From: a virus
DNA: 51,966 nucleotides
IMG/VR virus record: IMGVR_UViG_3300031746_000028
Coordinates: 1-51,966 of that record
Reading direction: 5' to 3' (one strand)
The notes below the pieces were generated by a model. That model had not been told where the DNA came from. It did no database searches and saw only the letters and a program-made list of their open reading frames with translations. Each line of letters begins with the position of its first letter. Positions within the stretch are counted from its first letter, which is position 1. The position numbers were made by a program, and so were the translations under genes. Positions 15,460 through 45,243 of the stretch are shown piece by piece.

Positions 15460-16843
15460 CGGGGGCTGGCCACCGTTCCCAAAACCGCAAGCGAAACCGA
15501 TGACGGTCAGAGAAGCGTGGCAGGGCTTGCCGGACTTTGACAAGAGGCCGCTGGCGTTGTCGCCGCTCTTCAGCGCGTACTGGAGACGGGCGAAACCTGG
15601 AGACATTCTCGGGGGGCACTTCTCTTCGAGCAAGTTACACTGGGATCGGCCAGCGCCGACTATGCAGAAGTCAGAGACGAACGGCGGTCTGTACCACCCT
15701 GAAGAATGCCGAAGGTTACACGTCACTGAGATGGTGCGGTTGGGGTCCTTTGCAGACGGGTTTAGGTTCGCAGTCCCGGACCATCAAGCATTCCGGCAGG
15801 TTGGGAACGCAGTGCCTCCGGGTCTCATGCGTGGGATTGCCGAGGTAGTGAGAGACCACATCCTCATGGTCGACCAGTTCACCTACATTTCGACCTTCGC
15901 GGGCTGCGGCGGCTCCTCCCTCGGCTACAAGTGGGCCGGCGGCAAGGGTCTCCTGGCCATCGAGTTTGACGCCAACGCCGCCGCCACCTACCGGGCGAAC
16001 TTCGAGACGCCGGTCCTGGAGCGAGACATCTGCACGGTGACCGCCGCCGAGGTCCTCAAGCTGACGGGCCTGCGGGTCGGCGAACTTGACGTGCTGGATG
16101 GGTCGCCACCCTGCCAGGGCTTCTCGACTGCCGGCAAGCGCCAGATACATGACCCGCGTAACAGCCTCTTCCGGGAGTTCGTCCGGCTCATCGAGGGTTT
16201 GCAACCGAAGGTCTTCGTGATGGAGAACGTGAGCGGCCTCGTGAAGGGCAAGATGAAGTATGTCTTTGCGGAGATCATGCGCTGTCTCAAGGCCACCGGC
16301 TATGCCGTCCGTTGCAAGCTGCTGAACGCGATGTACTTCAACGTCCCGCAGTCACGGGAACGGCTCATCTGGATCGGGGTCCGGGCGGACATCGGGCGGG
16401 GGCCGGAGTTTCCGAAGGCGCAGGGGAAGCCGACTGGGTTTGCATTAGAGCAAGCCGGCGATGGCCCTTGGTGGCTGAACAAAGAACAGGTGGCTCAGAG
16501 GATCGAACACCGCAGTAGGCAAGAGGCTCGAGGTCATGGATGGGGGCATGTCTTCTATGATGGGGAAGGGCCATGTCCGACAGTGCCCAAAAACGGGTTC
16601 TGTTCGGCATCCCCCATACTTGTGAAGCAGTCTGGTGGATGGCGGCACTTAGTGTTGGGTGAGTTGAAGAGTGCCGGTTCCTATCCTTCTTCGTGGGCAT
16701 TCGTCGGTACTTGGCAGAATGCTTACCAGCGCATCGGCAACAGCGTCCCGCCGCGCTTCATGCAGGCCATCGCCGAGACCATCCGGGATGCCATCATCCT
16801 CCCGGCCAGGGCAGCCCGGCACCCCGTACCCGGAGCGAGTTGA
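15443..16843 (+). CDS. C5-cytosine DNA methyltransferase with an extra methyltransferase C-terminal half fused in front, 466 aa
   Basis: Residues about 1-143 look like the C-terminal half of a C5 methyltransferase: MTVREAWQGLPD, LHWDRPAPT, motif IX-like RRLHVTEMVRLGSFADGF (about 89-106) and motif X QVGNAVPP (about 118-125). Then a full enzyme starts: motif I TFAGCGGSSLG (about 150), motif IV DGSPPCQGFST with the catalytic Cys (about 224), motif VI MENVSG (about 259), motif VIII QSRERLIWIG (about 301) and motif X RIGNSVPP (about 430). The true motif IX of the second part is weak. Both C-terminal regions are visibly less GC-rich than the catalytic core. It modifies cytosine at C5, presumably to evade restriction. 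Start ATG 15443 overlaps the ParB gene; GTG 15437 is possible. Confidence 0.85.
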   Translation: MSFQCDGGWPPFPKPQAKPMTVREAWQGLPDFDKRPLALSPLFSAYWRRAKPGDILGGHFSSSKLHWDRPAPTMQKSETNGGLYHPEECRRLHVTEMVRLGSFADGFRFAVPDHQAFRQVGNAVPPGLMRGIAEVVRDHILMVDQFTYISTFAGCGGSSLGYKWAGGKGLLAIEFDANAAATYRANFETPVLERDICTVTAAEVLKLTGLRVGELDVLDGSPPCQGFSTAGKRQIHDPRNSLFREFVRLIEGLQPKVFVMENVSGLVKGKMKYVFAEIMRCLKATGYAVRCKLLNAMYFNVPQSRERLIWIGVRADIGRGPEFPKAQGKPTGFALEQAGDGPWWLNKEQVAQRIEHRSRQEARGHGWGHVFYDGEGPCPTVPKNGFCSASPILVKQSGGWRHLVLGELKSAGSYPSSWAFVGTWQNAYQRIGNSVPPRFMQAIAETIRDAIILPARAARHPVPGAS

Positions 16844-16850
16844 GTGACCT

Positions 16851-17468
16851 ATGGCGGCGCGGAAGAGCCCGGCCAAGGGCGAGGAACCGCCCCAGGCGCT
16901 CCGGGCTTTCGAGGACTACTACGGCATGGGCGAGGGGCGTTCCCTGCCTAAGTTGGCGAGACAGTACAGGGCAAGCGCAGAGGCAGTGCCAACCAAGCAG
17001 GCGACGAGGCTCAAGCTGTGGTCGGCCGCTCACAAGTGGCAGCAGCGCGTCAAGGATCGCGACCAGCAGGCCTCCCAGGCCCGAGCCAAGCAGGTGGCCG
17101 AACGGGCCATGAAGTTCCGCGAGCGCGTCCTGGTGGGCATCGAGGTGGACGTGAACCGCTACCTCCAGGCGTTGCAGAACCGGGGCTCCGAGGGCATCAT
17201 GGCGGAAGACGCGGCCAGCCTGGAGAGGCTCGTCGTGCTCTTCTTCAAGCTCGCCGAGCAGCCGTTGACGGACAAGCAGCAGGTCGAGCATAGCGGGCCG
17301 GGCGGCGGGCCTCTCCAGACGGAGAACAAGCACAGTGGCAGCCTCGCTCTCAGCGCCAGCGCCGAGGTCCTTGGAATACTGGCAGCAGCAGGTGCGCTCG
17401 AACCCGCGGCTGCAGGAGCTGCTGACCCCGAAGCTGACGACGTGGATACCGCACCAGCCGCACCCTAA
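16851..17468 (+). CDS. Terminase small subunit, 205 aa
   Basis: The protein has a basic N-terminus, a helix-turn-helix-like part (FEDYYGMGEGRSLPKLARQYRAS kind of segment, about 24-46, then EAVPTKQATRLKLWSAAHKW), and a long coiled-coil helix rich in Gln/Ala/Arg (RVKDRDQQASQARAKQVAER). This layout and the position immediately before the large subunit identify it as the DNA-recognition subunit of the packaging motor. The C-terminal 40 residues are low-complexity Ala/Pro/Glu and overlap the large subunit gene by 134 bases. Confidence 0.75.
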   Translation: MAARKSPAKGEEPPQALRAFEDYYGMGEGRSLPKLARQYRASAEAVPTKQATRLKLWSAAHKWQQRVKDRDQQASQARAKQVAERAMKFRERVLVGIEVDVNRYLQALQNRGSEGIMAEDAASLERLVVLFFKLAEQPLTDKQQVEHSGPGGGPLQTENKHSGSLALSASAEVLGILAAAGALEPAAAGAADPEADDVDTAPAAP

Positions 17469-18675
17469 GCAGACGGCGTTCCTGTGGCTCCCGCACCGCG
17501 AGGCTTTCTACGGCGGCGCGGCCGGCGGTGGTAAGTCGGACGCCCTGCTCATGGCGGCGCTGCAGTACGTGGACGTGCCCGGCTACGCGGCCATTCTGTT
17601 CCGGCGCACCTTCACAGATTTGATGCTGCCCGACGCGATCATGGACCGCTCGCAGCAGTGGCTGTTGGGCACCAAGGCCCACTGGTCGCAGCAGAATAAG
17701 CAGTGGACGTTCCCCTCCGGGGCGACGCTGACGTTCGCCTACTTGGACACGGAGCGTGACAAGTACCGCTACCAGTCGGCGCAGTTCCAGTTCATCGGCT
17801 TCGACGAGCTGACGCAGTTCCCGGAGACGCAGTATCTGTACCTGTTCTCCCGGCTGCGGCGCCTTGACCAGCATCAGGTGCCGCTGCGAATGCGGGCGGC
17901 CAGCAACCCCGGCGGCATCGGCCATGAGTGGGTCAAGCAGCGGTTCATCATCGAGGGGCGGACGCAGGGCCGGGTGTTCATCGCGGCCAGCCTGAGCGAC
18001 AACCCGAGCCTCGACCAGGAAGAGTACCGCCAGAGCCTCGCCGAGCTTGACCCGCACACACGGGCCCAACTCCTCGAAGGCGACTGGGACAGCATCGCGG
18101 GCAACCTGTTCCGGCGCGAGTGGTTCGAGATCGTGGACGCGGCACCGGCCGACTGCCGCTGGGTGCGTTACTGGGATCGGGCGGCGACGGAGGCCAAGCC
18201 CGGGCGCGACCCTGACTACACCGTCGGCGTGCTGATGGGTCGGAGCAAGGACGGCATCTTCTACGTACAGGATGTACAGCGGGTGCGGGCGACCCCCCGC
18301 GGCGTGGAAAGCCTTGTGGTGGCGACGGCCGAGGTGGACACGAGGCGCGTGCCGATCTGGATGGAGCAGGAGCCCGGTAGCAGCGGCGTGGACACCATTG
18401 ACACCTACACCCGGCGCGCCCTCTCGGGCTTCGAGTTCCGGGGCGACAAGGTGACCGGCTCCAAGGAGACGCGGGCGCGGCCCCTCTCCTCGCAGGCGGA
18501 GGCCGGCAACGTCAAGCTGGTGCGGGGCCCGTGGATCGGTGACTTTCTGAACGAACTGGCGGCGTACACCGGGGACGCCGACAACCATGCCCACGATGAC
18601 CAGGTAGACGCGGCCAGCGGGGCATTCAACAAGCTCCATGAGCGGCCCGGCATGATCCCCCGAGGACGAGCATGA
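17335..18675 (+). CDS. terL: Terminase large subunit, 446 aa
   Basis: The ATPase domain has Walker A YGGAAGGGKSD (about 58-68) and Walker B FQFIGFDELTQF (about 150-161), preceded by PHPKQTAFLWLPHREA, the adenine-binding Q motif. The C-terminal RNase-H-like nuclease shows RYWDRAATEAKPGRDPDYTV (about 277-296) with the first metal-binding Asp, and HDDQVDA near residue 420. Length is typical. It translocates DNA into the prohead and cuts it. GTG at 17335 lies well inside the small subunit gene; TTG near 17370 is the next possible start. The stop overlaps the portal ATG. Confidence 0.95.
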   Translation: MAASLSAPAPRSLEYWQQQVRSNPRLQELLTPKLTTWIPHQPHPKQTAFLWLPHREAFYGGAAGGGKSDALLMAALQYVDVPGYAAILFRRTFTDLMLPDAIMDRSQQWLLGTKAHWSQQNKQWTFPSGATLTFAYLDTERDKYRYQSAQFQFIGFDELTQFPETQYLYLFSRLRRLDQHQVPLRMRAASNPGGIGHEWVKQRFIIEGRTQGRVFIAASLSDNPSLDQEEYRQSLAELDPHTRAQLLEGDWDSIAGNLFRREWFEIVDAAPADCRWVRYWDRAATEAKPGRDPDYTVGVLMGRSKDGIFYVQDVQRVRATPRGVESLVVATAEVDTRRVPIWMEQEPGSSGVDTIDTYTRRALSGFEFRGDKVTGSKETRARPLSSQAEAGNVKLVRGPWIGDFLNELAAYTGDADNHAHDDQVDAASGAFNKLHERPGMIPRGRA

Positions 18676-20249
18676 GTGTTCTCTCCACGGTCGGCAACTG
18701 GTTCGGGCAGGCTGCCTCCTGGCTGGGCATCACCGGACAACGAGTGAGTGCTACCATGCTGACGGCGATGACGGGCAACAACCCGAAGCCCGAGTGGCCG
18801 CCCCTGGCCGACCGCCCGCGGCTGATTGCTTACCACAACGGCAGAATGCTGTACCGGGGCGAGCACGCCGCGCACCTGGACAAGCGCGACAGTGCTCAGA
18901 AGACCGCGCACCCCTACGTGGCGGTCAACCTCTGCGGGGCGTTGACGGACCTCGTGACCGGGCGGCTTTTCGGGCAGCCATTCACGGCCACGGTGCCGGA
19001 GGAGCTGGCCGGCACGCAGGACTTCATCTACGAACTGATGGAGCACAACTACCTGGAGAACGCCTGCCTCGTGGCAGCCGCCGGTGCCAGCTACCGCGGC
19101 GACGCCTGCTTCAAGGTGCGCTACGACGAGGGCCAGCGCCGGGTCGTCGTGGAGACGTTCTCGCCCTCCTGCTTCTTCCCCGAGATGCACCCCCTGGACG
19201 CCACCCGCATGGTCGCCGCGAACCTCGACCAAGTGCTCCTGCGCAAGGCGGATGACCCGTATCTTTGGCGGGAGCGGCATGAGCCCGGCGTGGTGCGCAA
19301 CCAACTCTTCCGCCTGGACAAGGACCAGCAGACTGGCGTCTACCATTTCGACCCGGCGACTGACGAGGTGGACCTGAATACCATCGAGGCGCTGGCGGAC
19401 TTGCCGCCGGAGATGGGGACGGGCGTGGACGCTCTCCTCGTGGTGCATGTCGCCAACCGCCCGCCGGTCGAGGGGCAGTTCTTCGGCCAGTCGGACTATG
19501 ACGAGGCGCTGGTCTCGCTGCAGGCGGAGGCCAACAGCCGGGAGACGCAGCGGGCGGCGGTGCTGAGCAAGCACGTTGACCCGACTATGACCGGCCCGAT
19601 GGTGCCGGATGCGTTCAAGGACGGCGCCGGCAACGTGAAGCTGGAGGGCATGAAGTACCTGGAGGTGGGGCCCGGCCAGCAGGAGCCGAAGTACGTCGTG
19701 TGGGATCCGCAACTGCCCGCCGTGGAGAACCAGCTCAAGGACCTGAAGGTGGCCTTCGCGGTCAACGCGGGCGTGGAGATGACGGCCCTGGTCCCGCAGG
19801 AAGGTGGCGCTGGGCCGGTGTCGGGGAGGGCGCTGCGGCTGTCACAGATGAAGACGCAGACGACCGTGGCGCTCAAGCAGCGCGCCTGGGGGCCGGGGCT
19901 GCAGCGGCTGCTGTCGGTGGCGACGAAGCTGGCGGCGGCGGTCGGGCCGGGGGCGCTGGACTGGAAGCCGGCGGAGGGCAGCCTTGTGGCGGTCGGCCCG
20001 GAGGACATCACGGTCACGTTCTCCGATGGCCTGCCGCAGGACCGCATGGAGGACGTGGAGGAGCAGACCGCCATGGTGGCCGCCGGGCTACAGACGCCGA
20101 AGCGGGCCATGATGGCGCTGCATGGGGTGTCGAGCGAAGAGGCGGACGCGATGCTCGAGGAGATGGGGGCGGCGAAGCAGGCGATGGCGCCGCCGGCGCC
20201 GGGCGGGTCGTCGCTCTTCCGGGCGATTGTGCCGCAGGAGGCTGAGTGA
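18672..20249 (+). CDS. Portal protein, 525 aa
   Basis: ATG overlaps the terL stop. Sequence features fit SPP1/HK97-type portals: a helical N-terminus, NLCGALTDLVTGRLFGQPFT, a beta-rich clip/wing (YRGDACFKVRYDEGQRRVVVETF), a long central helix region (NSRETQRAAVLSKHVDPTM) and a C-terminal Ala/Met-rich crown (EEADAMLEEMGAAKQAMAPP). It forms the dodecameric ring at the packaging vertex. Its place between terminase and minor capsid genes is standard. Confidence 0.9.
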   Translation: MSVLSTVGNWFGQAASWLGITGQRVSATMLTAMTGNNPKPEWPPLADRPRLIAYHNGRMLYRGEHAAHLDKRDSAQKTAHPYVAVNLCGALTDLVTGRLFGQPFTATVPEELAGTQDFIYELMEHNYLENACLVAAAGASYRGDACFKVRYDEGQRRVVVETFSPSCFFPEMHPLDATRMVAANLDQVLLRKADDPYLWRERHEPGVVRNQLFRLDKDQQTGVYHFDPATDEVDLNTIEALADLPPEMGTGVDALLVVHVANRPPVEGQFFGQSDYDEALVSLQAEANSRETQRAAVLSKHVDPTMTGPMVPDAFKDGAGNVKLEGMKYLEVGPGQQEPKYVVWDPQLPAVENQLKDLKVAFAVNAGVEMTALVPQEGGAGPVSGRALRLSQMKTQTTVALKQRAWGPGLQRLLSVATKLAAAVGPGALDWKPAEGSLVAVGPEDITVTFSDGLPQDRMEDVEEQTAMVAAGLQTPKRAMMALHGVSSEEADAMLEEMGAAKQAMAPPAPGGSSLFRAIVPQEAE

Positions 20250-20251
20250 CC

Positions 20252-20659
20252 ATGCTGAGCGATCTGCTTCTGCGGCGTTGGTGTATGACGGTGACCGAAC
20301 TGGCTCTGTGGAAATACCGGGTTGCCAACGTGGGAGACTGGTATGGGGTGCCCGTATATGCCTGGCACATTCGGCACCAGCTTGCCTACCGGGCGGTGTG
20401 GGTCTACCCCGGCGATTGGGAGGGGCGCTGCCGGGCATGGCCCTTCCGAGCAGGACAGGTGGCCTGGGCACTGCGCTGTGTGGTGGCTGCAGAAAGCTGG
20501 TTCTTCGGAGGGTGGTACTACCGCGCGTTCGTCGCTGTTGCGGACTGGGCTGGCCTGTCATACCGCGAAACAGAGGCCCGGTACTGGTCGGAGGCATGGC
20601 GGCTACTCGCCCGCCACATCGGCCTGAAGCTCACCGGGCGGCGAGGGTTGGCTGACTGA
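20252..20659 (+). CDS. Trp-rich protein of unknown function, 135 aa
   Basis: ATG at 20252 follows gcaggagg; GTG at 20246 overlaps the portal stop. The product is unusually rich in Trp, Tyr and Arg (WYGVPVYAWHIRHQLAYRAV, WSEAWRLLARHI), and is unlike other head proteins. Its stop abuts the minor capsid start (20659). It is probably an accessory head or entry protein, or a moron. No family recognised. Confidence 0.55.
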   Translation: MLSDLLLRRWCMTVTELALWKYRVANVGDWYGVPVYAWHIRHQLAYRAVWVYPGDWEGRCRAWPFRAGQVAWALRCVVAAESWFFGGWYYRAFVAVADWAGLSYRETEARYWSEAWRLLARHIGLKLTGRRGLAD

Positions 20660-21468
20660 TGGCCGCGGCCCTGCGCCCGTACAGCCGCTCCGAACTGCTG
20701 GAGATCGCCGACCAGCTCGGCGGCGTCTACCGCGACGGCGAGGCGCGCATCCTGCGCCTCCTCGGCCAGGGCAGCATCAGCGAGTGGAAACGGGACTACC
20801 TGAACAAGCAGCTCAAGCAGATCGAGACCATCCTGCACGGGCTGGAGGGGGCATCACGGGACTGGGCTGAGACGCACGTGCCGACGGTGTACCTCCACAA
20901 CCTGCGGATCGCCGACCAGGCCCTCGGGTCGAGTATGGGCATGACCGCCATTCACCAGGACGCCATGAGCAGCATCGCCCAGACGCTCGTGCAGGACCTG
21001 GACCACGTGACCGGCGGGGTGGGCCGGGCGGTGCGCGACGTGTACCGGCAGGCGACGCTGGGCAACATCCAGGCGGGGCTGACCGGGGGCGAGACGCGGC
21101 GGCAGGTCAGCAAGGGGATCGTCGCCGACCTGCAGGAGAAGGGCGTGACGGGGTTCACCGACAAGGCCGGCCGCGAGTGGGCCATGAGCGACTACGCCGA
21201 GATGGTGGCGCGGACCACGACGCGGGAGGCCTCCTGGCAGGGCACGGCGAACCGGATGCTCGAGGCTGGTGAGGACCTGCTGCAGATCAGCAGCCACGCC
21301 CGGAGCTGCGAGTTGTGCGAGCCCTGGCAGGGCGTCGTGGTGAGCATGAGCGGTGAGACGGCGGGTTACCCGACGCTGAGCCAGGCGCAGGGCGAAGGGT
21401 TTGGCCACCCTAACTGTGTGCATGATCTGTTGCCGTACGTGCCGGAGGCGGCTATACTGGGGGAGTAG
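20659..21468 (+). CDS. Phage minor capsid protein (head morphogenesis, min_cap2-like), 269 aa
   Basis: The C-terminal part carries the signature of phage minor capsid protein 2/MuF-type proteins: SHARSCELCEPWQG (about 213-226), SGETAGYPTLSQA and FGHPNCVHDLLPYV (about 250-263), with two Cys of a CxxC pair plus NC/H residues that probably bind metal. The N-terminal 190 residues are helical (NKQLKQIETILHGLEG, DAMSSIAQTLVQDLDHVTG). It lies next to the portal and before the scaffold as usual. Its last codons (PEAAILGE and stop) lie within the repeat that is copied at 22311. Confidence 0.88.
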   Translation: MAAALRPYSRSELLEIADQLGGVYRDGEARILRLLGQGSISEWKRDYLNKQLKQIETILHGLEGASRDWAETHVPTVYLHNLRIADQALGSSMGMTAIHQDAMSSIAQTLVQDLDHVTGGVGRAVRDVYRQATLGNIQAGLTGGETRRQVSKGIVADLQEKGVTGFTDKAGREWAMSDYAEMVARTTTREASWQGTANRMLEAGEDLLQISSHARSCELCEPWQGVVVSMSGETAGYPTLSQAQGEGFGHPNCVHDLLPYVPEAAILGE

Positions 21469-21535
21469 ACAGAGCCTTGGCGGGAGGGTGGGTTCACTCA
21501 CCCTGTCCCACCTGACCGCCAGAAACAGGGTGAGC
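21447..21535 (+). repeat. Cassette leader repeat R1, copy a
   Basis: These 89 bases recur at 22311-22399 with one mismatch (t at 21513, c at 22377). The repeat starts inside the last codons of the minor capsid gene and runs up to the start codon of the next ORF. It includes an inverted repeat (ggtgggttcactcacc) and the sequence gaccgccagaaacagggtgagc. The last part appears a third time at 22738-22770. Confidence 0.9.
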
Positions 21536-22267
21536 ATGATGGCAGAAAGCGGTACGGACGGAGAGAGATGGGGATTAGACGGAGACAGTGCGTACGATGA
21601 CACTCTCCAGCACATAGAAGTCGCTGGCGGCATCATGGAGTACCTCGAAGCAATGCGCATGGGGGATTGTCGAGACTGGCGCGAAGGGTGGAAGACGGCA
21701 ATAGCAGAGTCATTGCAACACTACCTGAAGCAGCAGGTCGAGACGGAGTATGCTGACCTGCTCCCAAAGACGATGTCCTGCGAGTGCTTCTACGTACCAT
21801 CCGATGCAATGCTGATACCCGGCATTCTGAGGAAGGGGCATGTCTGGGATGGCCAAGACTGGATAGCTGTCCAACAGATCGCTTTCGTGGACGAGCCAGT
21901 CGAAGGTCTTTGGGACCCAGCACAACCCGACAACTGCCAGGGTTGTGGAATGGACCTCCTCAGCTACCCGACGCCTCATGGTCCCATTAGGGCGAAGCTT
22001 GCGGACATTGCGGAGCCGGGGGGTTGCGACAAAGACAGCACACCCCAACAGCTCCAGGTCATGATGACGTGTCCGAAGTGCGGCCAAGTCGATACCATGA
22101 CCATCAGGTCAGACCGGGTAGTGTGCAACTTCGTTGAGAGTACGTGCGTCTGCGGGAATGTCAGTTACTGGCGCGTGACATACGAGTGGGCACCTGAGAA
22201 CAAGTGGTTTCCTATAGGTGCAACGGTAGCCATTGATGAGGAGTTTGCTCGAAGTCTGATCGAGTAG
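21536..22267 (+). CDS. Cassette ORF A: unknown zinc-ribbon-containing protein, 243 aa
   Basis: ATG at 21536 (MMAESGTDGERW) is directly at the end of leader R1a. The first 90 residues are acidic and helical (GGIMEYLEAMRMGDCRDW). The C-terminal half has CQGCG (about 135), MTCPKCGQVDTM (about 178) and STCVCGNVSYW (about 202), so one or two zinc-ribbon-like sites are likely. No recognised family. Composition is clearly less GC-rich than the flanking head genes, suggesting acquisition. It is not a typical head gene and interrupts the usual minor capsid-to-scaffold order. Confidence 0.65.
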   Translation: MMAESGTDGERWGLDGDSAYDDTLQHIEVAGGIMEYLEAMRMGDCRDWREGWKTAIAESLQHYLKQQVETEYADLLPKTMSCECFYVPSDAMLIPGILRKGHVWDGQDWIAVQQIAFVDEPVEGLWDPAQPDNCQGCGMDLLSYPTPHGPIRAKLADIAEPGGCDKDSTPQQLQVMMTCPKCGQVDTMTIRSDRVVCNFVESTCVCGNVSYWRVTYEWAPENKWFPIGATVAIDEEFARSLIE

Positions 22268-22280
22268 CATCGCACCTATC

Positions 22281-22317
22281 CACGGGCACCCCGAGCCGTC
22301 CTCTTCCGAGGGCGGCT
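22281..22317 (+). terminator. Cassette hairpin R2, copy a
   Basis: AGCCGtCCTC facing GAGGgCGGCT gives a strong stem-loop with ttcc loop. The 37 bases recur at 23086-23122 with three differences that all keep the stem or fall in the loop. No long T-run follows. It may be a transcript-processing or weak termination element. Its last bases (ggcggct) are also the first bases of the next R1 copy. Confidence 0.7.
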
Positions 22318-22399
22318 ATACTGGGGGAGTAGACAGAGCCTTGGCGGGAGGGTGGGTTCACTCACCCTGTCCCACCCGACCGCCAGAAACAGGGTGAGC
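22311..22399 (+). repeat. Cassette leader repeat R1, copy b
   Basis: 88 of 89 bases match 21447-21535, including the codons for the last residues of the minor capsid protein and its stop. Since that gene is not otherwise present here, the copy arose by duplication. It joins hairpin R2a through the shared bases ggcggct. Confidence 0.9.
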
Positions 22400-22402
22400 G
22401 AG

Positions 22403-23065
22403 ATGTCAGAGATGTGCTGCGAGCTGTATTGTCCGCGCTGCAAGTTCGGCTTTCGGTGGGTAGAGGGACATTTGGAATATCATATGGACGACGGTCTCGG
22501 CGGGGTTGCACGCATTCGCAGACCCAGCCCGCCAGAGCTGGAGGATGCGGCGCTGGCAGATTCCACTGCGCCGACGCCAGGGGTCAGTATTCGTAGCGGG
22601 TCTACGCTAACCGAACTCGTCCCGCAGGTACTGGCCGATGCACAGGAGTGGTTCGAGAAGATGCAACGCGAAGACGTGAAGGCGGCGATCCGCGAACAGA
22701 TCGCCGCAGAGCGACTTGCGGCGGACGCCCAGGCGGAGACCGCCAGAAACAGCGTGAGCATGATGGCAGAGCAGAGAGAGCGGTGGTGGAATGCAGAGCA
22801 TGGGATTCGCCATGCGCCTCCCATGGTGATTCCGCTTGCCCCCCTCGGGAAGAATGTGGCCGCGGGCGTGTTTGCGGGCGGGGTACGTCTTCTGAGGAGG
22901 ATCGAGCGGCCCCACATCCAGGTTGAGAAGGGCATGGTTTTCGTGACCGATATGGAGAACGGTGAAATGATCACGACGTTCGGCAAAAGGGGGTGGGATG
23001 AGCATGTGAAGATAGGGCAGGAAGCAGAACGTCTCAGCAATAAGTTGGCGGCAACCGAGGCGTAG
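22403..23065 (+). CDS. Cassette ORF B: mosaic protein with capsid-like and scaffold-like pieces, 220 aa
   Basis: ATG at 22403 follows leader R1b. Residues 1-14 have a Cys-rich start (MSEMCCELYCPRCK). Residues about 69-85 (TLTELVPQVLADAQEWF) match the N-terminus of the major capsid protein (TLTELVPQILGEAQMWF), also in DNA (22607-22657 against 23978-24028). Residues about 108-114 (DAQAETA) match the scaffold (22722-22746 against 23496-23520), and they switch at gaccgccag into a third copy of the leader end and start (SVSMMAEQRERW; 22738-22770). The last 100 residues, from MMAEQRERW, are unlike anything else here. Whether the chain is functional is unknown. It seems intact as one ORF. Confidence 0.6.
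   Translation: MSEMCCELYCPRCKFGFRWVEGHLEYHMDDGLGGVARIRRPSPPELEDAALADSTAPTPGVSIRSGSTLTELVPQVLADAQEWFEKMQREDVKAAIREQIAAERLAADAQAETARNSVSMMAEQRERWWNAEHGIRHAPPMVIPLAPLGKNVAAGVFAGGVRLLRRIERPHIQVEKGMVFVTDMENGEMITTFGKRGWDEHVKIGQEAERLSNKLAATEA
22738..22770 (+). repeat. Third, internal copy of the R1 leader end with start codons
   Basis: 33 bases match 21514-21546 with one difference (c for g at 22753). This copy lies in frame inside ORF B and includes the ATGATG that starts ORF A, so residues from 22761 on may be a third cassette ORF (MMAEQRERWWNAEHGIRH..., about 101 aa) captured by fusion. Confidence 0.85.
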
Positions 23066-23085
23066 CAACTAAGGCCACATCCCGA

Positions 23086-23122
23086 CACGGGCACACCGAG
23101 CCGACCTCTTCTGAGGGCGGCT
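23086..23122 (+). terminator. Cassette hairpin R2, copy b, before the scaffold gene
   Basis: GAGCCGaCCTC facing GAGGgCGGCTC forms a stable stem. 34 of 37 bases match copy a. A second small hairpin (ggacgc/gcgtcc, about 23138-23153) follows before the scaffold RBS. It may modulate transcription between the minor head and scaffold/capsid genes. Confidence 0.7.
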
Positions 23123-23191
23123 CTTCCGATTCCACGAGGACGCTTGGGCGTCCTTCACGCCGACGGGCGGCAAAAACGGAGGCCGAGCACC

Positions 23192-23938
23192 ATGTCAGAG
23201 AAGCCGATTGCAGACGGACAGAGCACCACCCCGCCCGCTGGTGATGGCCAGGCCAGCGGTCTGGGCGCAGACAACGCGGCGGGAGGCACTGGGGCCGGTG
23301 TCGCGGGGCAGTTCACCCAGGCGGACATGGACAAGGTCGTGACGGACCGCCTCGCGCGGGAGAAGCGCAGCCTCGAAGCGGCGCACGCGAAGACGCTGGC
23401 AGAGCGCGATGCCGAGCTGCAGAAGTACCGCGACGCCGAGGCGGCGCAACAGGCCGCCGCGATGAGCGAGCTGGAGAAGGCCCAGAAGGTCGCGTCGGAC
23501 GCCCAGGCGGAGACTGCCAGGCTGCAGACCCAGGTGGCCGACGCCAACATCCAGACGCTCCGGGCAAACCTGCTCGCGGTCGAGGCCCCGGACCTGCCGT
23601 CGGAGTTTCGGGTGCAGGTGACGGGGGCCGACGAGGAGGCCATCAAGGCGAGCATCGCGGAGGCGCGGATGAAGTACCAGGAGCGGCAGAAGGCGTGGCT
23701 GGCTGACGTGGCCTCGCTGACGCCGGAGCAGCTCGTGGCGAAGTACGGCGAGGAGGCCCGCCCGCTGGCGGAACGCCTGTCGGGGAAGGTGCTGAGCATC
23801 GGCAGCCCGACGGCGGCGACGCCGGGGCAGCCGCCCCTGGCCGGAGAATGGGACCCCAACAAACCCGCGACCCAGACCACGGCGAACTGGCGCAAGGAAC
23901 GCGAGCGCCAGGGCGTCGGTCGGGTCACCATCGGGTAA
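23192..23938 (+). CDS. Capsid scaffolding protein, 248 aa
   Basis: ATG at 23192 follows acggagg. After a Gly/Ala-rich start comes FTQADMDKVVTDRLAREKRS (about 47-66), the conserved beginning of phage scaffold proteins, and a long coiled coil (AERDAELQKYRDAEAAQQAA, KAQKVASDAQAETARLQTQV). The C-terminal part is disordered and ends in WRKERERQGVG. It should template procapsid assembly and precedes the major capsid gene by 15 bases. Confidence 0.88.
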   Translation: MSEKPIADGQSTTPPAGDGQASGLGADNAAGGTGAGVAGQFTQADMDKVVTDRLAREKRSLEAAHAKTLAERDAELQKYRDAEAAQQAAAMSELEKAQKVASDAQAETARLQTQVADANIQTLRANLLAVEAPDLPSEFRVQVTGADEEAIKASIAEARMKYQERQKAWLADVASLTPEQLVAKYGEEARPLAERLSGKVLSIGSPTAATPGQPPLAGEWDPNKPATQTTANWRKERERQGVGRVTIG

Positions 23939-23953
23939 CAGGAGTGAGTAGAG

Positions 23954-24838
23954 ATGGCTGGCACCACCACCACCACACTGACCGAACTCGTCCCGCAGAT
24001 TCTGGGCGAGGCGCAGATGTGGTTTGTTGACAAGTCGTTGTTCATGCCGAAGACCGGCATCGCGGAGCAGTTCCTGCAGTGGCGGGACCTGCGCGACTCG
24101 CCCGGGCTGACCGCCACCTTCCCGAAGTACACCGCTGTGACCATGGGTGACGGGACGGAGGGGACGGACTACTCCAGCATCTCCGTGCTGGACACCAGTG
24201 GTCCGGGCTCGGTGACCGCCGCGGAGAAGGTCATCAACGTGCTCATCAGTGACCTGGCCGTGGACTCCGTTCAGGGCGGGCCGGGGCAGCTCATCGCGGA
24301 CTGCGGTAGGGCTATCGGTACCGCCGCGGCCACGAAGTTCGACGGCGATGTCATGGCCCTGTTCGCCTCGCTGACCGCCGCGATTACCGGCAGCTTCGCG
24401 ACCACGACTCCCGTCACCCAGGCGAAGTTCCGCCGGGCTATCTCTGGCCTGGAGAGCGTGCCGGTGCCGGGGCCGTACGCCGCGTTTTTCCACCCGAACG
24501 GCTGGGAGGACTTCCTGGCAGAGTCGACCACCCCGCTGCTGAACGCCGCCGCATCGGATGCCATCGCCAGGGAGATTTGGAAGAGCGACTTCGCCGCGAA
24601 CATCCTCGGCGTGAACTGCTTCAAGCACTCGAAGGTGCCGGCCGCGACGACCGTAGACTGGGTGGGAGGCTTCATGTCGTCCTACGCCATCGGCTGCGTG
24701 TGGAAGGGCGACCTCAAGATCGAACCCCAGCGTGACGCCACCCTCCGGGGTACGGAGTTCGTCGGCGTGATGAAGTACGGCGTGGGCGTCATTGACGCGA
24801 CGGCCGGGTACATCATGCTCCACGACTACCGCGTGTAG
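23954..24838 (+). CDS. Major capsid protein (HK97 fold), 294 aa
   Basis: ATG at 23954 with ggagtgag upstream. The start MAGTTTTTLTELVPQILGEA and the downstream MWFVDKSLFMPK, GTEGTDYSSI, AEKVINVLISDLAVDS and AAATKFDGDVMALFA segments are typical of P22-like/HK97-fold capsid proteins of about 300 residues. A helix and loop region (FRRAISGLESVPVPGPYAAF FHP...) corresponds to the P/A domains. It is the shell protein. A strong hairpin follows at 24861. Confidence 0.9.
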   Translation: MAGTTTTTLTELVPQILGEAQMWFVDKSLFMPKTGIAEQFLQWRDLRDSPGLTATFPKYTAVTMGDGTEGTDYSSISVLDTSGPGSVTAAEKVINVLISDLAVDSVQGGPGQLIADCGRAIGTAAATKFDGDVMALFASLTAAITGSFATTTPVTQAKFRRAISGLESVPVPGPYAAFFHPNGWEDFLAESTTPLLNAAASDAIAREIWKSDFAANILGVNCFKHSKVPAATTVDWVGGFMSSYAIGCVWKGDLKIEPQRDATLRGTEFVGVMKYGVGVIDATAGYIMLHDYRV

Positions 24839-24860
24839 CGCGGGGACCGCGACAAACAGT

Positions 24861-24877
24861 GAGGTTCAGAGAACCTC
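24861..24877 (+). terminator. Hairpin after the major capsid gene
   Basis: GAGGTTC (24861-24867) pairs perfectly with GAACCTC (24871-24877) around aga. No T-run follows, so it may protect the capsid mRNA 3' end or partly terminate to keep capsid expression above that of downstream genes. Confidence 0.55.
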
Positions 24878-24931
24878 CGGGCGGGGCTGGTGGCGACACC
24901 GGCCTCGCCCGCTCTACAAGGAGGCAGTGAC

Positions 24932-25156
24932 ATGCCGCAACTGTTCCGCAAGATGAATGCTACGGATGGCGAGCCGGAGACCTGGTTCCGCTTCTACTAC
25001 CCGGTGGGGTCGGACATCAAGGCGGTCTGTGCCGCGAACGGGTGGGCCGACCAGATGCCCGCCGGGGTGCTGGTGCTAGACGAGAAGGGTGTCGTAATCC
25101 AGGAGGGGCCGGTCGCCGCTCCTGAGGCGGAGAAGCCAGCGAAGGAGGCCAAGTAG
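24932..25156 (+). CDS. Small head-region protein, 74 aa
   Basis: ATG at 24932 follows aaggaggcag. The protein reads MPQLFRKMNATDGEPETWFR, then VGSDIKAVCAANGWADQMPA, with an acidic/Lys tail. Such short proteins are common between capsid and connector genes. No specific role seen. Confidence 0.65.
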   Translation: MPQLFRKMNATDGEPETWFRFYYPVGSDIKAVCAANGWADQMPAGVLVLDEKGVVIQEGPVAAPEAEKPAKEAK

Positions 25157-25157
25157 G

Positions 25158-25577
25158 ATGACCGAGAATGAGCCCCTGATTGCCATGCGCTACATCGGGG
25201 TCATGGACGCTCATGCGGCACCCGAGGTGAACGTGTTCCTGGCTCCCTGTGACTGTCTCATCGTCGGTGTCTGGCTGGTGGACGGCACCGCCAAGACTGG
25301 CCATGCCGACAACAAGGGCACCTACGTAGCCTACAACAAGACCACAGGCGCCGGCGCGGTCGTCGTGGCCAGCCGCGTCACCGACACCCCGACGACTGAC
25401 AACATCGTGGCGAACGTCGGCTGGCCGCTGGACCTGAGCACGACTCTCTCGGCGCTGAACATGTCTCAGGGCCAGGTGCTGTCGTTCAAGGCCACGGAGG
25501 CGGGCACGGCCGCCAGCGGCGACCTCGTGACTGCCCTGGTGGGCGTGGCCTACGTGCCCGGCAAGGGCCGCGTGTAA
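25158..25577 (+). CDS. Putative capsid decoration or head accessory protein, 139 aa
   Basis: The product is beta-rich (EVNVFLAPCDCLIVGVWLVD, GAGAVVVASRVTDTP, QVLSFKATEAGTAASGDLVT) with few charges, like small trimeric decoration or head-fibre proteins encoded directly after capsid genes. The assignment is from position and composition only. ATG at 25158 is one base after the previous stop. Confidence 0.5.
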   Translation: MTENEPLIAMRYIGVMDAHAAPEVNVFLAPCDCLIVGVWLVDGTAKTGHADNKGTYVAYNKTTGAGAVVVASRVTDTPTTDNIVANVGWPLDLSTTLSALNMSQGQVLSFKATEAGTAASGDLVTALVGVAYVPGKGRV

Positions 25578-25601
25578 GCGACCGCGGAAGGACGGACTGA
25601 G

Positions 25602-26180
25602 ATGGCCAGTCTGATTGTCTGCACGCCCGGCGGCAAGGACGACAACTGCTACGTGACCGCCGTGCAGGCCACGGCGTACTTCGCCAACACCCTGCGGGCG
25701 CAGTCATGGGACGCCCGGGTGGTCACCCTGCAGCCCCAGTCATGGGACGCCCTGGCGGTCACCCTGCGGGAGCAGGCACTCATTCAGGCGACGCAGGACC
25801 TTGAGGCTCTGGGCGGGGCGCGGCTGAACGTGCGTAGCCCCGCTCGGAGTCGTTTCGCGGGATTCCCATACAACTGTGACCTGGACGTGCAGGCGCTGCA
25901 CTTCCCGCGCATCACGGACGTGGACCATGACGGCGTGACGAAGCTGGTCCCGCAGGACATCAAGGCGGCAGTCTGTGAGCAGGCGGCCTGGCTGCTCGCG
26001 AAGCTGTCGGGCCCCGATCTCGTTGATCGCGACGCCCTGCAGGCAGCGGGGGTGACGAACATCAGTGTGGATGGGATCAGTGAGAGCTATGGCCCGCGCA
26101 CCGTACCGGCCGGCATCTGCCCGGCGGCCTGGACGCGCGTGCAGCCATTCCTGCGCGGCGGCTGGTCGGGGACGGTGTAG
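25602..26180 (+). CDS. Head-tail connector/adaptor protein (DnaT-like family), 192 aa
   Basis: The layout matches the adaptor family annotated as DnaT-like: an N-terminal DNCYVTAVQATAYFANTL, a helix with EQALIQATQDLEALGGARL, a beta segment LHFPRI, then VPQDIKAAVCEQAAWLL and a C-terminal VDGISESY. It probably docks on the portal. A 36-bp tandem duplication (25701-25731 and 25737-25767) inserts a second QSWDAxxVTL unit in a surface segment. Confidence 0.7.
   Translation: MASLIVCTPGGKDDNCYVTAVQATAYFANTLRAQSWDARVVTLQPQSWDALAVTLREQALIQATQDLEALGGARLNVRSPARSRFAGFPYNCDLDVQALHFPRITDVDHDGVTKLVPQDIKAAVCEQAAWLLAKLSGPDLVDRDALQAAGVTNISVDGISESYGPRTVPAGICPAAWTRVQPFLRGGWSGTV
25701..25767 (+). repeat. 36-bp in-frame tandem duplication in the connector gene
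   Basis: cagtcatgggacgccc...ggtcaccctgc appears at 25701-25731 and 25737-25767, 29 of 31 bases alike, period 36. It adds 12 codons in frame and looks recent. Confidence 0.85.
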
Positions 26181-26183
26181 CCG

Positions 26184-26789
26184 ATGCTGACCATCAGCGT
26201 TGACAGCCACGAGGTGCGGGCGGCGATCGGGCGGCTGGCGGATGTTAGCAGCCACGTGGCGCGTGACCTGAAGCCTGTGCTGGTCAAGCAGGTGCGGGCG
26301 ACGCTGGCGGCGGCGAAGGCCCAGACGCCCCGCGACGAGGGCACGCTGCTGCGGTCGGGGAGCTACGAGGTCGGCGCGCAGGGCCCCCGGGCGCTGTGGG
26401 CTCAGGTGAGCTTCGGCGGCCAGGCATCGCAGTATGCCCAGGCCCAGCATGAGACTGACAGCTACACGCACACCCGAGCGGAGTGGGCGGCGAAGTACGG
26501 CTACCGGGTGTCAAGCAGCCTCAAGACGAAGCGCGAACAGGTTCACGCGAAGCGCCGGATGCGGATACTCACGGCCAAGGTGACGACGGGTGGGGTCATC
26601 ACCATGCGCCGCAAGCTGACACGGAAGTTCCGGAACGTCAAGGGCCACAAGGGCGGGCGGGCTCACTTTCTCCACGGCAAGCCCTGGTCGGCCTGGAACC
26701 CCCAGCGGGAAGCGGCCCTGACGCAGGCGGTTGCCACAGAAGCCGTGCGCTTGTACGAAGCAGCCCTGAGCAAGGGCCTCGGAGACTGA
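26184..26789 (+). CDS. HK97 gp10-like head-tail/neck protein, 201 aa
   Basis: The segment KAQTPRDEGTLLRSGSYEVG (about 45-64) followed by WAQVSFGGQASQYAQAQHE is the hallmark of HK97 gp10-like tail-completion proteins (TPxDTGxLRxS...xFxxxYAxxqHe). The C-terminal 90 residues are longer than usual and very basic, with RRKLTRKFRNVKGHKGGRAH. It acts at the head-tail junction. Confidence 0.8.
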   Translation: MLTISVDSHEVRAAIGRLADVSSHVARDLKPVLVKQVRATLAAAKAQTPRDEGTLLRSGSYEVGAQGPRALWAQVSFGGQASQYAQAQHETDSYTHTRAEWAAKYGYRVSSSLKTKREQVHAKRRMRILTAKVTTGGVITMRRKLTRKFRNVKGHKGGRAHFLHGKPWSAWNPQREAALTQAVATEAVRLYEAALSKGLGD

Positions 26790-26790
26790 C

Positions 26791-27129
26791 ATGGACGGTC
26801 TCTACAACGCCACCGCCCGCATCATCAAGCCGATCTCGACCCCCACCGGCCCGGAAGACCTGGAGCGCCAGCACGACCGTGACGAGCTGCGGCCGACGCT
26901 GCGCTGCAGCCTGCGACAGATGACGCGCAAGCAAGAGGCAACGGTTCTGGGTGACCTCGCCACGGCGGCCTATGTGTGCCGCCTGCGAACGGCGGAGGTG
27001 ATCTCCGTCGGCTGGCAACTGAGCATCCTGCAGGACGGGGACCGGGAGTGGGTGACGTACTACGTGCGTGAGGCCCGGCGCGCGGGTCTCGGGGCGGCCT
27101 GGAACCTGCTGGTGGAGAAGGAGGCATAG
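26791..27129 (+). CDS. Head-closure/connector protein, 112 aa
   Basis: A short, beta-rich protein (LYNATARIIKPISTPTGPED, AAYVCRLRTAEVISVGWQLS) in the position of head-completion proteins of the SPP1 gp16 type. Order (adaptor, gp10-like, this, tail terminator) could vary between phages. Family assignment is from gene order. Confidence 0.55.
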   Translation: MDGLYNATARIIKPISTPTGPEDLERQHDRDELRPTLRCSLRQMTRKQEATVLGDLATAAYVCRLRTAEVISVGWQLSILQDGDREWVTYYVREARRAGLGAAWNLLVEKEA

Positions 27130-27132
27130 GGC

Positions 27133-27747
27133 ATGGCCATTGACTTCGTCCACACTGAGCAACTGGTGGATGCGGTGCTGGCGGTGCTGACCGCGCACCT
27201 GCCCGCCGGGTGGCTGCCCTCAACGGCAAGGGCGAGCGAGGTGGCCCTGAAGGTCCTCGATCATGGGGACTATGCGGACTACCCGGAGGCGGACAGCCTG
27301 CTCAAGGATTGCCCGGCCATCATCATTCGGGGGTTGGGGACGGAGCCGACGGACGCCGGCATTGGCGGGCTACTGGTCAGCTCGGAGCGCCTGCGGCTGG
27401 TGCACGTGCGGATGTTCGAGCAGTGCCGCGATGCCGAGGGGAAGATCGAGCTGAACATGACGCGGGCGCGGGAACGCTACGCCAAGATCATCGGCAAGGC
27501 GATGTTCACGGACCCCAAGCGGCGGCTGGCGGTGATCGGCGGCGGTGGGGTGCGCACGGAGGTCAGCCTCGCCAGCACGGACACCGCCGGGGCGCAGCTT
27601 GGGGAGCACCGCTTCCTCGGCTGGGACCTGGGCCAGGACGGGCCGACCCGGACCGAGGACGTGGCGACCATCCGGCAGATGAGCCAGCGAGTCTGGGCCA
27701 TCGCTTGCGACATGGTAGTGGACGTGAGTACGGGCGGGCAGGGGTAG
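27133..27747 (+). CDS. Tail terminator-like protein, 204 aa
   Basis: The protein has an alpha/beta plan (HTEQLVDAVLAVLTAHLPAG, CPAIIIRGLGTEP, LRLVHVRMFEQCR, KIIGKAMFTDPKRRLAVIGG), consistent with the tail terminator located just before the tail-tube gene. It would cap the tail tube and join it to the neck. Assignment by position and fold-like pattern. Confidence 0.6.
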   Translation: MAIDFVHTEQLVDAVLAVLTAHLPAGWLPSTARASEVALKVLDHGDYADYPEADSLLKDCPAIIIRGLGTEPTDAGIGGLLVSSERLRLVHVRMFEQCRDAEGKIELNMTRARERYAKIIGKAMFTDPKRRLAVIGGGGVRTEVSLASTDTAGAQLGEHRFLGWDLGQDGPTRTEDVATIRQMSQRVWAIACDMVVDVSTGGQG

Positions 27748-27777
27748 TCGGCAGATCCGCGAGAGAGGAGCACACAG

Positions 27778-27939
27778 ATGCGACACGAGAAGGAAGAACA
27801 GGTCTCCGCTCCGGCGGGGCCGTATGTGGCAGGGCCGACCCCCGACGAGGCTAGGGAGCGGCACCAGATCAAGGCGACGCCCAAGCCCCAGGGCAATGCC
27901 CCAGAACCCCAGCAGGAGGCGGTGAGCCCCGATGAGTAA
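27778..27939 (+). CDS. Small charged Pro-rich protein, 53 aa
   Basis: ATG at 27778 follows agagaggag. The sequence is disordered (PAGPYVAGPTPDEARERHQI, PKPQGNAPEPQQEAV). Its stop overlaps the tail tube ATG by 8 bases. Small proteins at this place are frequent in siphophages. Function unknown. Confidence 0.6.
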   Translation: MRHEKEEQVSAPAGPYVAGPTPDEARERHQIKATPKPQGNAPEPQQEAVSPDE

Positions 27940-28795
27940 CGTCTTCACCGGACAGGTGCAGGGCATCAGCAAGATCGCCACCGGCACGCCGGCGGCGTTC
28001 TGCCGGGCCATTAGCGGCGGCGACTTTGCCATTGACCCCAACAACACGATTTTCAACGGCATCGGCGGTCAGGTGGTGGCCCGCAAGGGCGCCAATGCCA
28101 TCACCCTCTCTTTTACCTGCGGGGGGGTGGACAAGGCGGACCTGGCACTGTGGTTCCCCGTGACCGCTGTCGTGCAGGTGGCGAGCTTCCCCGACTTCCT
28201 GATCGAGGTGGACGACGGTACCAACGGCCAGGAGTGGGTACTGACCGGCGGGCAGCCGTCGTCGGCGAAGGTCTCGTGCGCCGGCGGCCTGGGCAGTGAG
28301 GTGCAGTATACCCTGGGCATGAGCTTCAAGCTGGCGACGGAGCAGGCGGTGGGCACGAAGGTGCCGGTGTACAACTCGTTGCTTGGCCACACGAACAACA
28401 ACATCGGTGTGACCTACGGCGGCGCCGCGGCCGGCACGCTGAGCTTCGACCTCAGCAACGACCTGGGCGCCGAGTTCCACAATCCCATGGACGCCAAGAC
28501 CGCCGGGGTGCAGCACGTCGTGGACGGGGTGTACATCACGAAGAATGACGTGAAGTTCTCGGCGGTTCTGAGCAACGTACTCAAGGGGACGGCGATGGAC
28601 GTGGACACGTGGACGCCGGAGGCCGTCGTGATCGCCATGCTGAACGGGACGGCTGGGCAGAACATCACCGCGACGCTGAGCAACATGGTGCCGGGCGCCT
28701 GGGGGATGCCGGTGGAGGCGCAGGGCCGGATCGGCTTCAAGCACGAGTGGATCCCGGGTCCGGGGACGGCGTTCAACCGCGTGGTGCTGACGTAG
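27932..28795 (+). CDS. Major tail (tube) protein, 287 aa
   Basis: A 287-residue, beta-rich protein with Gly/Ala/Val-rich strands (GQVVARKGANAITLSFTCGG, VQVASFPDFLIEVDDGTNGQ, TLSFDLSNDLGAEFH) located between the tail terminator and the tail chaperone, the standard place of the tube protein. Two paired hairpins follow its stop (28800-28836), as often seen for abundantly expressed tube genes. Confidence 0.78.
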   Translation: MSNVFTGQVQGISKIATGTPAAFCRAISGGDFAIDPNNTIFNGIGGQVVARKGANAITLSFTCGGVDKADLALWFPVTAVVQVASFPDFLIEVDDGTNGQEWVLTGGQPSSAKVSCAGGLGSEVQYTLGMSFKLATEQAVGTKVPVYNSLLGHTNNNIGVTYGGAAAGTLSFDLSNDLGAEFHNPMDAKTAGVQHVVDGVYITKNDVKFSAVLSNVLKGTAMDVDTWTPEAVVIAMLNGTAGQNITATLSNMVPGAWGMPVEAQGRIGFKHEWIPGPGTAFNRVVLT

Positions 28796-28799
28796 ACTG

Positions 28800-28836
28800 G
28801 AGCTGCCTGAGGCAGCTCGGAGTTGCGGAGCAACTC
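28800..28836 (+). terminator. Two consecutive perfect hairpins after the tail tube gene
   Basis: GAGCTGCC/GGCAGCTC (28800-28818, loop tga) and GAGTTGC/GCAACTC (28820-28836, loop gga) stand back to back, one base apart. No T-run follows, so full termination is unlikely. They may stabilise the upstream mRNA or reduce read-through into the chaperone and tape-measure genes. Confidence 0.65.
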
Positions 28837-28853
28837 AGGGAGGGTGACGAGAG

Positions 28854-29288
28854 ATGCCATTCTGTCCGGTGCAAGTGATCGTGGAATACGAGGGCGCGAC
28901 GTTCGCCTTCGTGAAGAACGACGAAGCGCAGGCCGGCCTCGACAAGGCCTTCGTGGAGCGCGACGGCGGGGCGATTGCCCTGGCGCTGCGTGACTACTTC
29001 GACAAGTCGGTTGTCTCTTGGGAGGGCGTTGTGGATGCTGACGGCAACGCCCTCCCCTGCAACCCCGAGACGAAGGCCGCGTGGATCGTGGCCTTCAAGT
29101 CGGCGGTCGTTGACGCCTACATGGACAAGCTCAAGGAGCTGGTGATGGGAAAAGTCGAGCCGCCCGAGCCGCCTTCGCCTGGTTCGTCACCAGAGACGAC
29201 GGCGGATGGGCGGAGCCTTACGACAGCGCCTGCGAGCGATACGCCCGCGCCAACCCCGGAGGCGGGCGAAGCCTCCCCGACTGCATAG
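28854..29288 (+). CDS. Tail assembly chaperone, short form (G-like), 144 aa
   Basis: ATG at 28854 follows agggagggtgacgag. The first 100 residues are a compact helical domain (YFDKSVVSWEGVVDADGNAL, KAAWIVAFKSAVVDAYMDKL KELVMGK). In the zero frame a Pro/Ser/Thr-rich tail follows (EPPEPPSPGSSPETTADG). The position between tube and tape measure, together with the slippery site at 29147, identifies it as the G-like chaperone that coats the tape measure during tail assembly. Confidence 0.85.
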   Translation: MPFCPVQVIVEYEGATFAFVKNDEAQAGLDKAFVERDGGAIALALRDYFDKSVVSWEGVVDADGNALPCNPETKAAWIVAFKSAVVDAYMDKLKELVMGKVEPPEPPSPGSSPETTADGRSLTTAPASDTPAPTPEAGEASPTA

Positions 29289-29437
29289 CCCTGCCGGTGC
29301 TGGCGCAGATGCTGAGCATGAACGTCGTTGAGATCAAGACCCTGAGCGCCGAGGAACTCTTCGCTTGTGTGGGCTGTGCCGAGGGGAAGGGTCTCGCGGA
29401 GTGGGCCAACCTGCACCCGCGCGGGAAGACGGGATAG
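28854..29437 (+). CDS. Tail assembly chaperone, -1 frameshift product (GT-like), about 194 aa
   Basis: A -1 slip on GGGAAAA (29147-29153) changes the frame after codon 100 and gives SRAARAAFAWFVTRDDGG, WAEPYDSACERYARANPGGG, a conserved-looking T domain (CIALPVLAQMLSMNVVEIKT LSAEELFACVGCAE is split here for length) and a stop at 29435-29437, four bases before the tape-measure ATG. The -1 frame has no start of its own there and better protein character than the zero-frame tail. This mirrors lambda gpG/gpGT. Confidence 0.85.
29147..29153 (+). promoter_or_regulatory. Programmed -1 frameshift slippery sequence
   Basis: The heptamer G GGA AAA (ATG GGA AAA in the zero frame) fits X XXY YYZ. The bases just after are GC-rich (gtcgagccgcccgagccgcc) and could form structure. 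Confidence 0.85.
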
Positions 29438-29440
29438 ACC

Positions 29441-41557: not shown

Positions 41558-41600
41558 TCGCGATCATTGAGGCATCGTCGGACTGAAGGGCAGGGCAACC

Positions 41601-44913: not shown

Positions 44914-45243
44914 ATGAGCGATCCGGGCCTGTTGGTCGCGCTGCCCGCCTGGGTGGAGACGGACCTGCGCTTCACCGTGAAGATAAATGACATCCTCGGC
45001 GCTGCCGTGGACCTGTCAGGGCTGACCCTGAAGTCGTTGATCGAGGACCCGGAGGATGGCGTCTCGGTGGGTGAGTTCACATTGACCGTCCAGACCCCGA
45101 CGAACATACTGCTCTTCGAGTGGGACGCCGCCGGGGCGGAGGCGGGGCGGGTTTACGTCTGGGATCTCAAGGCTACCGATGGTGATGGCATTCGCAGCCG
45201 GCCGGCGCACGGGACCATCGCGATGCTGCCGGTGGTGACGTAG
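44914..45243 (+). CDS. Stand-alone copy of the C-terminal tail module, 109 aa
   Basis: The protein LLVALPAWVETDLRFTVKIN, DLSGLTLKSLIEDPEDGVSV, LLFEWDAAGAEAGRVYVWDL, ending IAMLPVVT, is a close copy of the C-terminal 105 residues of the 533-aa protein. DNA at 44925-45243 aligns to 41243-41557. The start MSDPG follows gtaggagaggcag. It probably forms an Ig-like beta-sandwich that caps or attaches the tail adhesins. Confidence 0.75.
   Translation: MSDPGLLVALPAWVETDLRFTVKINDILGAAVDLSGLTLKSLIEDPEDGVSVGEFTLTVQTPTNILLFEWDAAGAEAGRVYVWDLKATDGDGIRSRPAHGTIAMLPVVT

Follow-up and report, generated by a model that had tools for sequence, protein, structure and literature searches.

An accessory-gene slot in the head operon of an uncultured phage and the traces of its assembly

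Introduction

The gain of accessory genes between essential genes is still called mysterious, and no common sequences have been found around such regions (PMC4378225). Several described systems resemble the locus analysed here. In Mu-like Pseudomonas phages, variable small genes, among them anti-CRISPR genes, occupy a fixed site among the head genes (PMC4704812; for the RGPs, PMC4378225); as here, these regions combine a low GC content and a conserved upstream sequence with mix-and-match content. Island3, a mycobacteriophage of cluster I, carries at genes 67/68, when compared with Brujita, an orphan gene bracketed by the duplicated 3' end of the upstream gene, a layout that was attributed to recombination between phages (PMC3029335) and that recurs at our locus. 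Morons are extra DNA of foreign composition between genes that are adjacent in a relative (PMC3029335, PMC4378225). The SAS/ESAS of cluster K mycobacteriophages are repeated blocks with an inverted repeat just 5' of the starts of unrelated genes (PMC3203893), the position in which a repeated leader is also found here. Of these, the Mu-like phage slot and the Island3 duplication appear to be the closest precedents. We describe a locus in the head operon of an uncultured phage for which the name accessory-gene slot fits best, and in which a record of the assembly has been preserved.

Results

The window analysed covers one IMG/VR virus record in full (51,966 bases); the record represents an uncultured tailed phage of bacteria with a high GC content (66%). 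The slot lies in the head operon between the minor capsid protein 2 and scaffold genes (Table 1), its left border being the 3' end of the former and its right border the leader of the latter (GACGCTTGGGCGTCCTTCACGCC), which contains a hairpin, R2. As the terminase relatives found in genomes fall in metagenome bins of Chloroflexota and PVC, the host may belong to one of these groups, which is a weak hint. A member of the Gp3-like recombination-directionality-factor family (PF18897; 2349-3488) might hint at a temperate phage. Arrays of a 63-bp tandem repeat occupy both ends of the record (8-200 and 51585-51966), the first and last 185 nt of which are 98% identical, probably reflecting terminal redundancy or a circular join; gp192 contains a 36-bp in-frame tandem repeat (25688-25759).

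Table 1. Features of the head gene run and of the slot, with positions in the window.
Feature	Position	Strand	Remarks
Terminase small subunit gene	start 16851		Head gene run
Terminase large subunit (terL) gene	start 17335		Head gene run
Portal gene	start 18672		Head gene run
Orphan ORF orf137	start 20246		Between portal and minor capsid protein 2 genes
Minor capsid protein 2 gene	20659..21468	+	PF06152, E=2e-35; PHROG minor head protein; 98% aa identity to L052
Promoter-like site (putative)	21430..21458	+	TTGCCG-17-TATACT; inside minor capsid gene end, at R1a
R1 copy a (R1a)	21447..21535	+	Last minor-capsid codons and stop, non-coding leader, SD-like GGGTGA before ATG
ORF A	21536..22267	+	243 aa; start 21536 or 21539; CxxC motifs like zinc ribbon
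R2 copy a (R2a), hairpin	22281..22317	+	25-nt stem-loop identical to R2 of L052
Junction J1	22311..22317	+	GGCGGCT (7 nt); joins R2a to minor-capsid 3' end/R1b
R1 copy b (R1b)	22311..22399	+	88/89 to copy a
ORF B	22403..22759	+	119 aa to ATG of third leader; Cys-rich own N-terminus, MCP scrap, scaffold scrap
MCP 5'-end scrap	22604..22653	+	50 nt, 82% to 23975-24024; MCP frame kept
Scaffold gene scrap	22718..22746	+	29/29 to L052 allele, 27/29 to own 23492-23520
Third, truncated leader copy	22738..22770	+	33 nt, 32/33 (97%) to R1a, including start codons
Junction J2	22738..22746	+	GACCGCCAG (9 nt); common to scaffold gene (L052 allele) and R1 leader
ORF C	22760..23065	+	101 aa; in frame with ORF B; CAI 0.482
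R2 copy b (R2b), hairpin of scaffold leader	23086..23122	+	Slot right border; same position L052 1859-1883
Scaffold protein gene	23192..23938	+	PHROG head scaffolding, E=1e-10
Major capsid protein (MCP) gene	23954..24838	+	PHROG major head protein, E=4e-13; PF25209

An earlier note on this DNA had described two ORFs bracketed by near-identical leaders (R1) and hairpins (R2), and sequence comparison bears this out. The R1 copies differ by one mismatch and their likeness extends to 105 nt at 94% identity (21442-21546 vs 22306-22410), and those of R2 agree at 34 of 37 positions (3 mismatches). Searched across the window, a 23-nt R1 probe and the R2 pattern gave exactly 2 matches each, with 0 expected in shuffled sequence, which excludes repeats by chance. 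Also as described before, R1b includes the final minor-capsid codons and their stop (GGCGGCTATACTGGGGGAGTAG), and R1 and R2 share the microhomology GGCGGCT at their junction. A third leader copy sits inside the second ORF, directly 5' of an in-frame ATG, so that each of the three copies directly precedes an ATG. Aligning the starts of ORFs A, B and C gives a single block, GTGAGCNNNATGKCAGA; after them, the annotated start in the genome that resembles each most closely is that of the scaffold gene (17-19/28). Beyond these three copies R1 was found neither elsewhere in the 52 kb nor in the other loci that were compared, and its core had no match in IMG/VR. The differences between R1a and R1b (1/89) and between R2a and R2b (3/37) are too few to date or order events.

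R2 folds far better than its shuffles (z of -4.0 and -3.4), but since it has no T run, it is not a standard terminator, and no terminator-like site was found on the + strand in the region. R1 was considered as a structured RNA and rejected, as it folds like its shuffles (z about 0) and has no match in Rfam. The promoter-like site at R1a is the sole sigma70-like match on both strands of 16800-29500 (12.7 kb; 0.8 expected); R1b retains the -10 hexamer but lacks a -35-like hexamer, and the relative L052, introduced below, reads TATACC at the -10 position. A promoter in R1a is suggestive only, and any role of R1 in translation is putative.

To find relatives, 2.9 million IMG/VR viral contigs were scanned for portal, minor capsid and scaffold; an MCP scan was added. 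A single close relative was obtained, L052 (IMGVR_UViG_3300032164_000646; 4,012 bp); a portal scan of genome contigs gave no further ones. A portal alignment of Paenibacillus, Bacillus and Terrisporobacter phages was discarded as scan query, being too divergent. Relatives by terL, which have the terminase in common with the phage, are uninformative on the slot because their head genes differ from those of the window, bar weak minor-capsid matches in two of them (L005, L058). Portal and minor capsid protein of L052 are 97-98% identical to those of the window and its scaffold protein 87%, and the left flank is 96-98% identical. The L052 slot, however, has one 49-aa ORF as its sole occupant, almost directly 3' of the minor capsid gene; R2 is present once, and R1 and ORFs A, B and C are all absent. 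No family was found for the 49-aa protein, which has one weak match, in phage 201phi2-1.

As L052 shares the flanks and has another occupant, slot content varies between relatives, and on this one comparison the slot appears to hold different cargo in different phages with its borders kept. The view in the earlier note of a head-operon cargo site with varying content and kept ends is thereby upheld, and the search for R1 and R2 in related phages that it had recommended recovered R2 next to a different ORF, but not R1. R2 is native to the leader of the scaffold gene, because L052 has it once and without R1, and R1 is tied to the cargo; the two had been taken for matched cassette ends, a view we do not share. 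A donor of A or B/C was found in no relative (n = 1), L052 carrying neither cargo.

Window and L052 are perfectly identical over the 115 nt that lead up to the left break and over the 98 nt that follow the right break, with more diverged stretches adjoining. Mismatches are clustered (dispersion 3.3 vs 0.94 in permutations, p<0.0002), also at third codon positions (p=0.005), and one stretch of 500 bp contains no difference at all; this is the pattern expected if relatives exchange DNA often. Two further differences between the records lie outside the slot. In 23813-25157 (L052 2574-3894), MCP, the scaffold C-terminus and the next small gene have been replaced as one block, the MCPs being 29% identical at the amino acid level against 87-98% for portal, minor capsid, most of scaffold and gp139, a pattern consistent with joint exchange of the coat protein and the scaffold part that would contact it. 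In the gap between portal and minor capsid genes, the window has a 403-bp insertion relative to L052 (20242-20644), a second cargo site, which carries orf137.

ORFs B and C form one open frame of 220 codons. The two ORFs noted earlier are thus two open frames, but because the third leader copy directly precedes an in-frame ATG, the second may be two, giving three cargo ORFs. ORF A (GC 0.559, the lowest; CAI 0.451), the front of B (B1) and C have a CAI of 0.45-0.48, the lowest of 31 segments, and a GC content of 0.56-0.60, as opposed to a CAI of 0.74-0.81 for terL, portal, minor capsid, scaffold and MCP, and to a GC content of 0.69-0.71 with a CAI of 0.76-0.81 for the neighbours; this foreign codon usage suggests that A, the front part of B, and C were recently acquired. 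No usable homologues of A or B/C were found in IMG/VR scans, by phage tblastn, or in Pfam, PHROGs, PADLOC and NCBIfam. A single weak match of ORF A in 294 genomes of one class, to a frame with stops, was discarded, and the N-terminal coding likeness of A and C past the start block was not significant (p=0.35). The motifs CQGC, CPKC and then CVC of ORF A resemble a zinc ribbon, and a weak match to an Elf1-like family (E=0.07) is only a lead; they weakly suggest a protein that is probably metal-binding and possibly nucleic-acid-binding. Predicted structures of A and B/C (pLDDT 34 and 59, pTM 0.28 and 0.24) were too poor to judge their folds. Most likely, the cargo consists of late-expressed accessory proteins that are dispensable for head assembly.

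ORF B is chimeric and combines pieces from the leader, the MCP gene and the scaffold gene. Its MCP scrap (TLTELVPQVLADAQEWF, vs TLTELVPQILGEAQMWF in the MCP) has an ungapped score of 32, whereas 134 control segments taken from this genome reach at most 17. The scaffold scrap (29 nt, DAQAETA) keeps the scaffold reading frame; its score is 25 with the window's own gene, where controls reach at most 23, and a full 29 with the allele of L052. That the bracketed ORFs lack visible similarity, as the earlier note stated, holds for the comparison with each other, but B has these pieces in common with the downstream head genes. The scaffold scrap passes into the third leader exactly at GACCGCCAG, a sequence present in both parents. 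Both J1 and J2 link downstream to upstream sequence, in the sense of unequal crossovers; overlaps of seven and nine nucleotides can arise by chance at some junctions.

Cassettes of integron type are not apparent. The attC core GTTRRRY is absent from the cassette ends, 22270-22325 containing no GTT, and no integron integrase was found among the main ORFs scanned against PHROGs. The slot also shows no HNH or IS pattern, in line with the earlier note.

Discussion

We consider it probable, with moderate confidence, that this accessory-gene slot was assembled by unequal, microhomology-joined recombination between co-infecting relatives, with exchange inside conserved borders. Relatives would carry different small genes between their minor capsid and scaffold genes. 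During co-infection, the slot end of one (R2, with GGCGGCT) would be joined to the slot start of the other (minor-capsid end, with GGCGGCT), and this unequal joining would set cargo A next to cargo B/C as a tandem, with a second leader left behind. Before that, one or more events of this type would have joined a scaffold fragment via GACCGCCAG to the leader before ORF C, and an MCP fragment would have come to lie upstream of the scaffold fragment in cargo B/C. As the common start block GTGAGCNNNATGKCAGA was retained, the cargo would stay translatable from the head-operon transcript, perhaps also from a weak promoter in R1a. We infer the order of these events and the expression of the cargo, as well as the intermolecular rather than intramolecular nature of the joining; the latter is favoured because the scaffold scrap and R2a match the L052 alleles better than the window's own, with small counts of 2 sites each. 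The phage encodes a Cas4/AddB-type exonuclease and an SbcC-like protein, and no annealing protein was identified in it. Phage recombinases have been shown by experiment to drive this kind of shuffling; illegitimate joining has been argued to be rarer than homology-driven exchange, which counts against the proposed mechanism (PMC3945230). Nor does the mechanism fully account for the common start block of the three cargo ORFs, which the L052 occupant lacks.

The near-identity of R1a and R1b (88/89) and the GGCGGCT junction would also follow from a duplication in cis, in which an R1-ORF-R2 unit was tandemly duplicated through GGCGGCT and one ORF then replaced, or the ends kept alike by gene conversion. 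The earlier note had proposed such a duplication with subsequent replacement. One unequal crossover, however, yields the same layout in one step, and duplication in cis, besides needing the extra replacement, leaves two observations unaccounted for: the better match of the scaffold scrap to L052 (29/29 vs 27/29), and an R2a closer to L052 than to R2b. We regard it as unlikely. An artefact, with two strain variants (A; B/C) merged into one contig, has to be considered for any metagenome assembly with an 89-bp repeat, yet the R2a-R1b joint should exist in the reads because its 7-nt overlap is too short for an ordinary k-mer assembly to invent, and the third leader and the scraps sit in non-repeated sequence; this source of the layout is very improbable.

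R1 could instead be a functional leader that is used repeatedly, acting as a regulatory block at gene starts and perhaps containing a promoter; its copying before each acquired gene would have been selected for, so that the slot grows by leader-gene units. The three copies directly before ATGs, the aligned starts of A, B and C with the scaffold start next best, and the only promoter-like match in 12.7 kb at R1a are all consistent with this. In opposition stand the confinement of R1 to the slot of this genome and its absence from L052, its folding no better than shuffles, and the missing -35-like hexamer of copy b, and we judge the idea improbable. Similarly doubtful, in our estimate, is that R1 would act as a portable gene-capture end, its start block amid short scaffold and minor-capsid sequences allowing repeated uptake of coding DNA and immediate translation, including that of new chimeric genes made from capsid-gene scraps; if true, this would make the slot a site of new-gene birth.

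Returning to recombination between co-infecting relatives and to the described systems, the likeness to the anti-CRISPR slot of Mu-like phages is one of position and variability: different genes occupy the same position in relatives, here in L052 alone. The phage family is unrelated, no Aca-type HTH regulator was found in A, B or C by family search, and an anti-CRISPR role of the cargo is without support. Whereas no common flanking target was recognised for RGPs (PMC4378225), junction overlaps and gene scraps are visible here. The duplicated upstream-gene end of Island3 has its counterpart in the minor capsid 3' end and stop within R1b, but Island3 has one repeat of about 60 bp, in contrast to the leader copies, two microhomology junctions and chimeric ORF in the head operon of this phage. 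As a separate observation, the 3' end of gp533 occurs twice (41242-41560 vs 44925-45246; 80% nt identity, 75% aa identity over 105 aa), with the duplicate lying beyond gp1097 (41601-44894), a gene whose own C-terminus also resembles gp533. The phage has here another, older case of a gene bracketed by a duplicated 3' end.

As in morons, the extra DNA separates genes that in L052 have only another small ORF between them, and its composition is unlike that of its neighbours. Classical moron membership fails on the terminator, R2 being native and without a T run, and the cargo's own promoter is only putative, with one match against 0.8 expected and at R1a only. The three R1 copies lie within a few nucleotides of start codons like SAS/ESAS, but SAS/ESAS are many and spread across the right genome half before non-structural genes, whereas R1 is confined to the slot.

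The slot took in foreign genes more than once, and the locus represents phage mosaicism and moron acquisition of the ordinary kind, the record of which can be read with unusual ease. Such gene shuffling is known in outline, but a record this clear is seldom left: the joints keep microhomology overlaps and duplicated ends, together with recognisable pieces of neighbouring genes that match a sister allele. With its chimeric ORF and readable joints the locus is worth specialist attention. It offers a concrete, testable series of joins by which a head operon may gain accessory genes, among them a double insertion in tandem, and marks where relatives may carry small accessory genes, for example for anti-defence.
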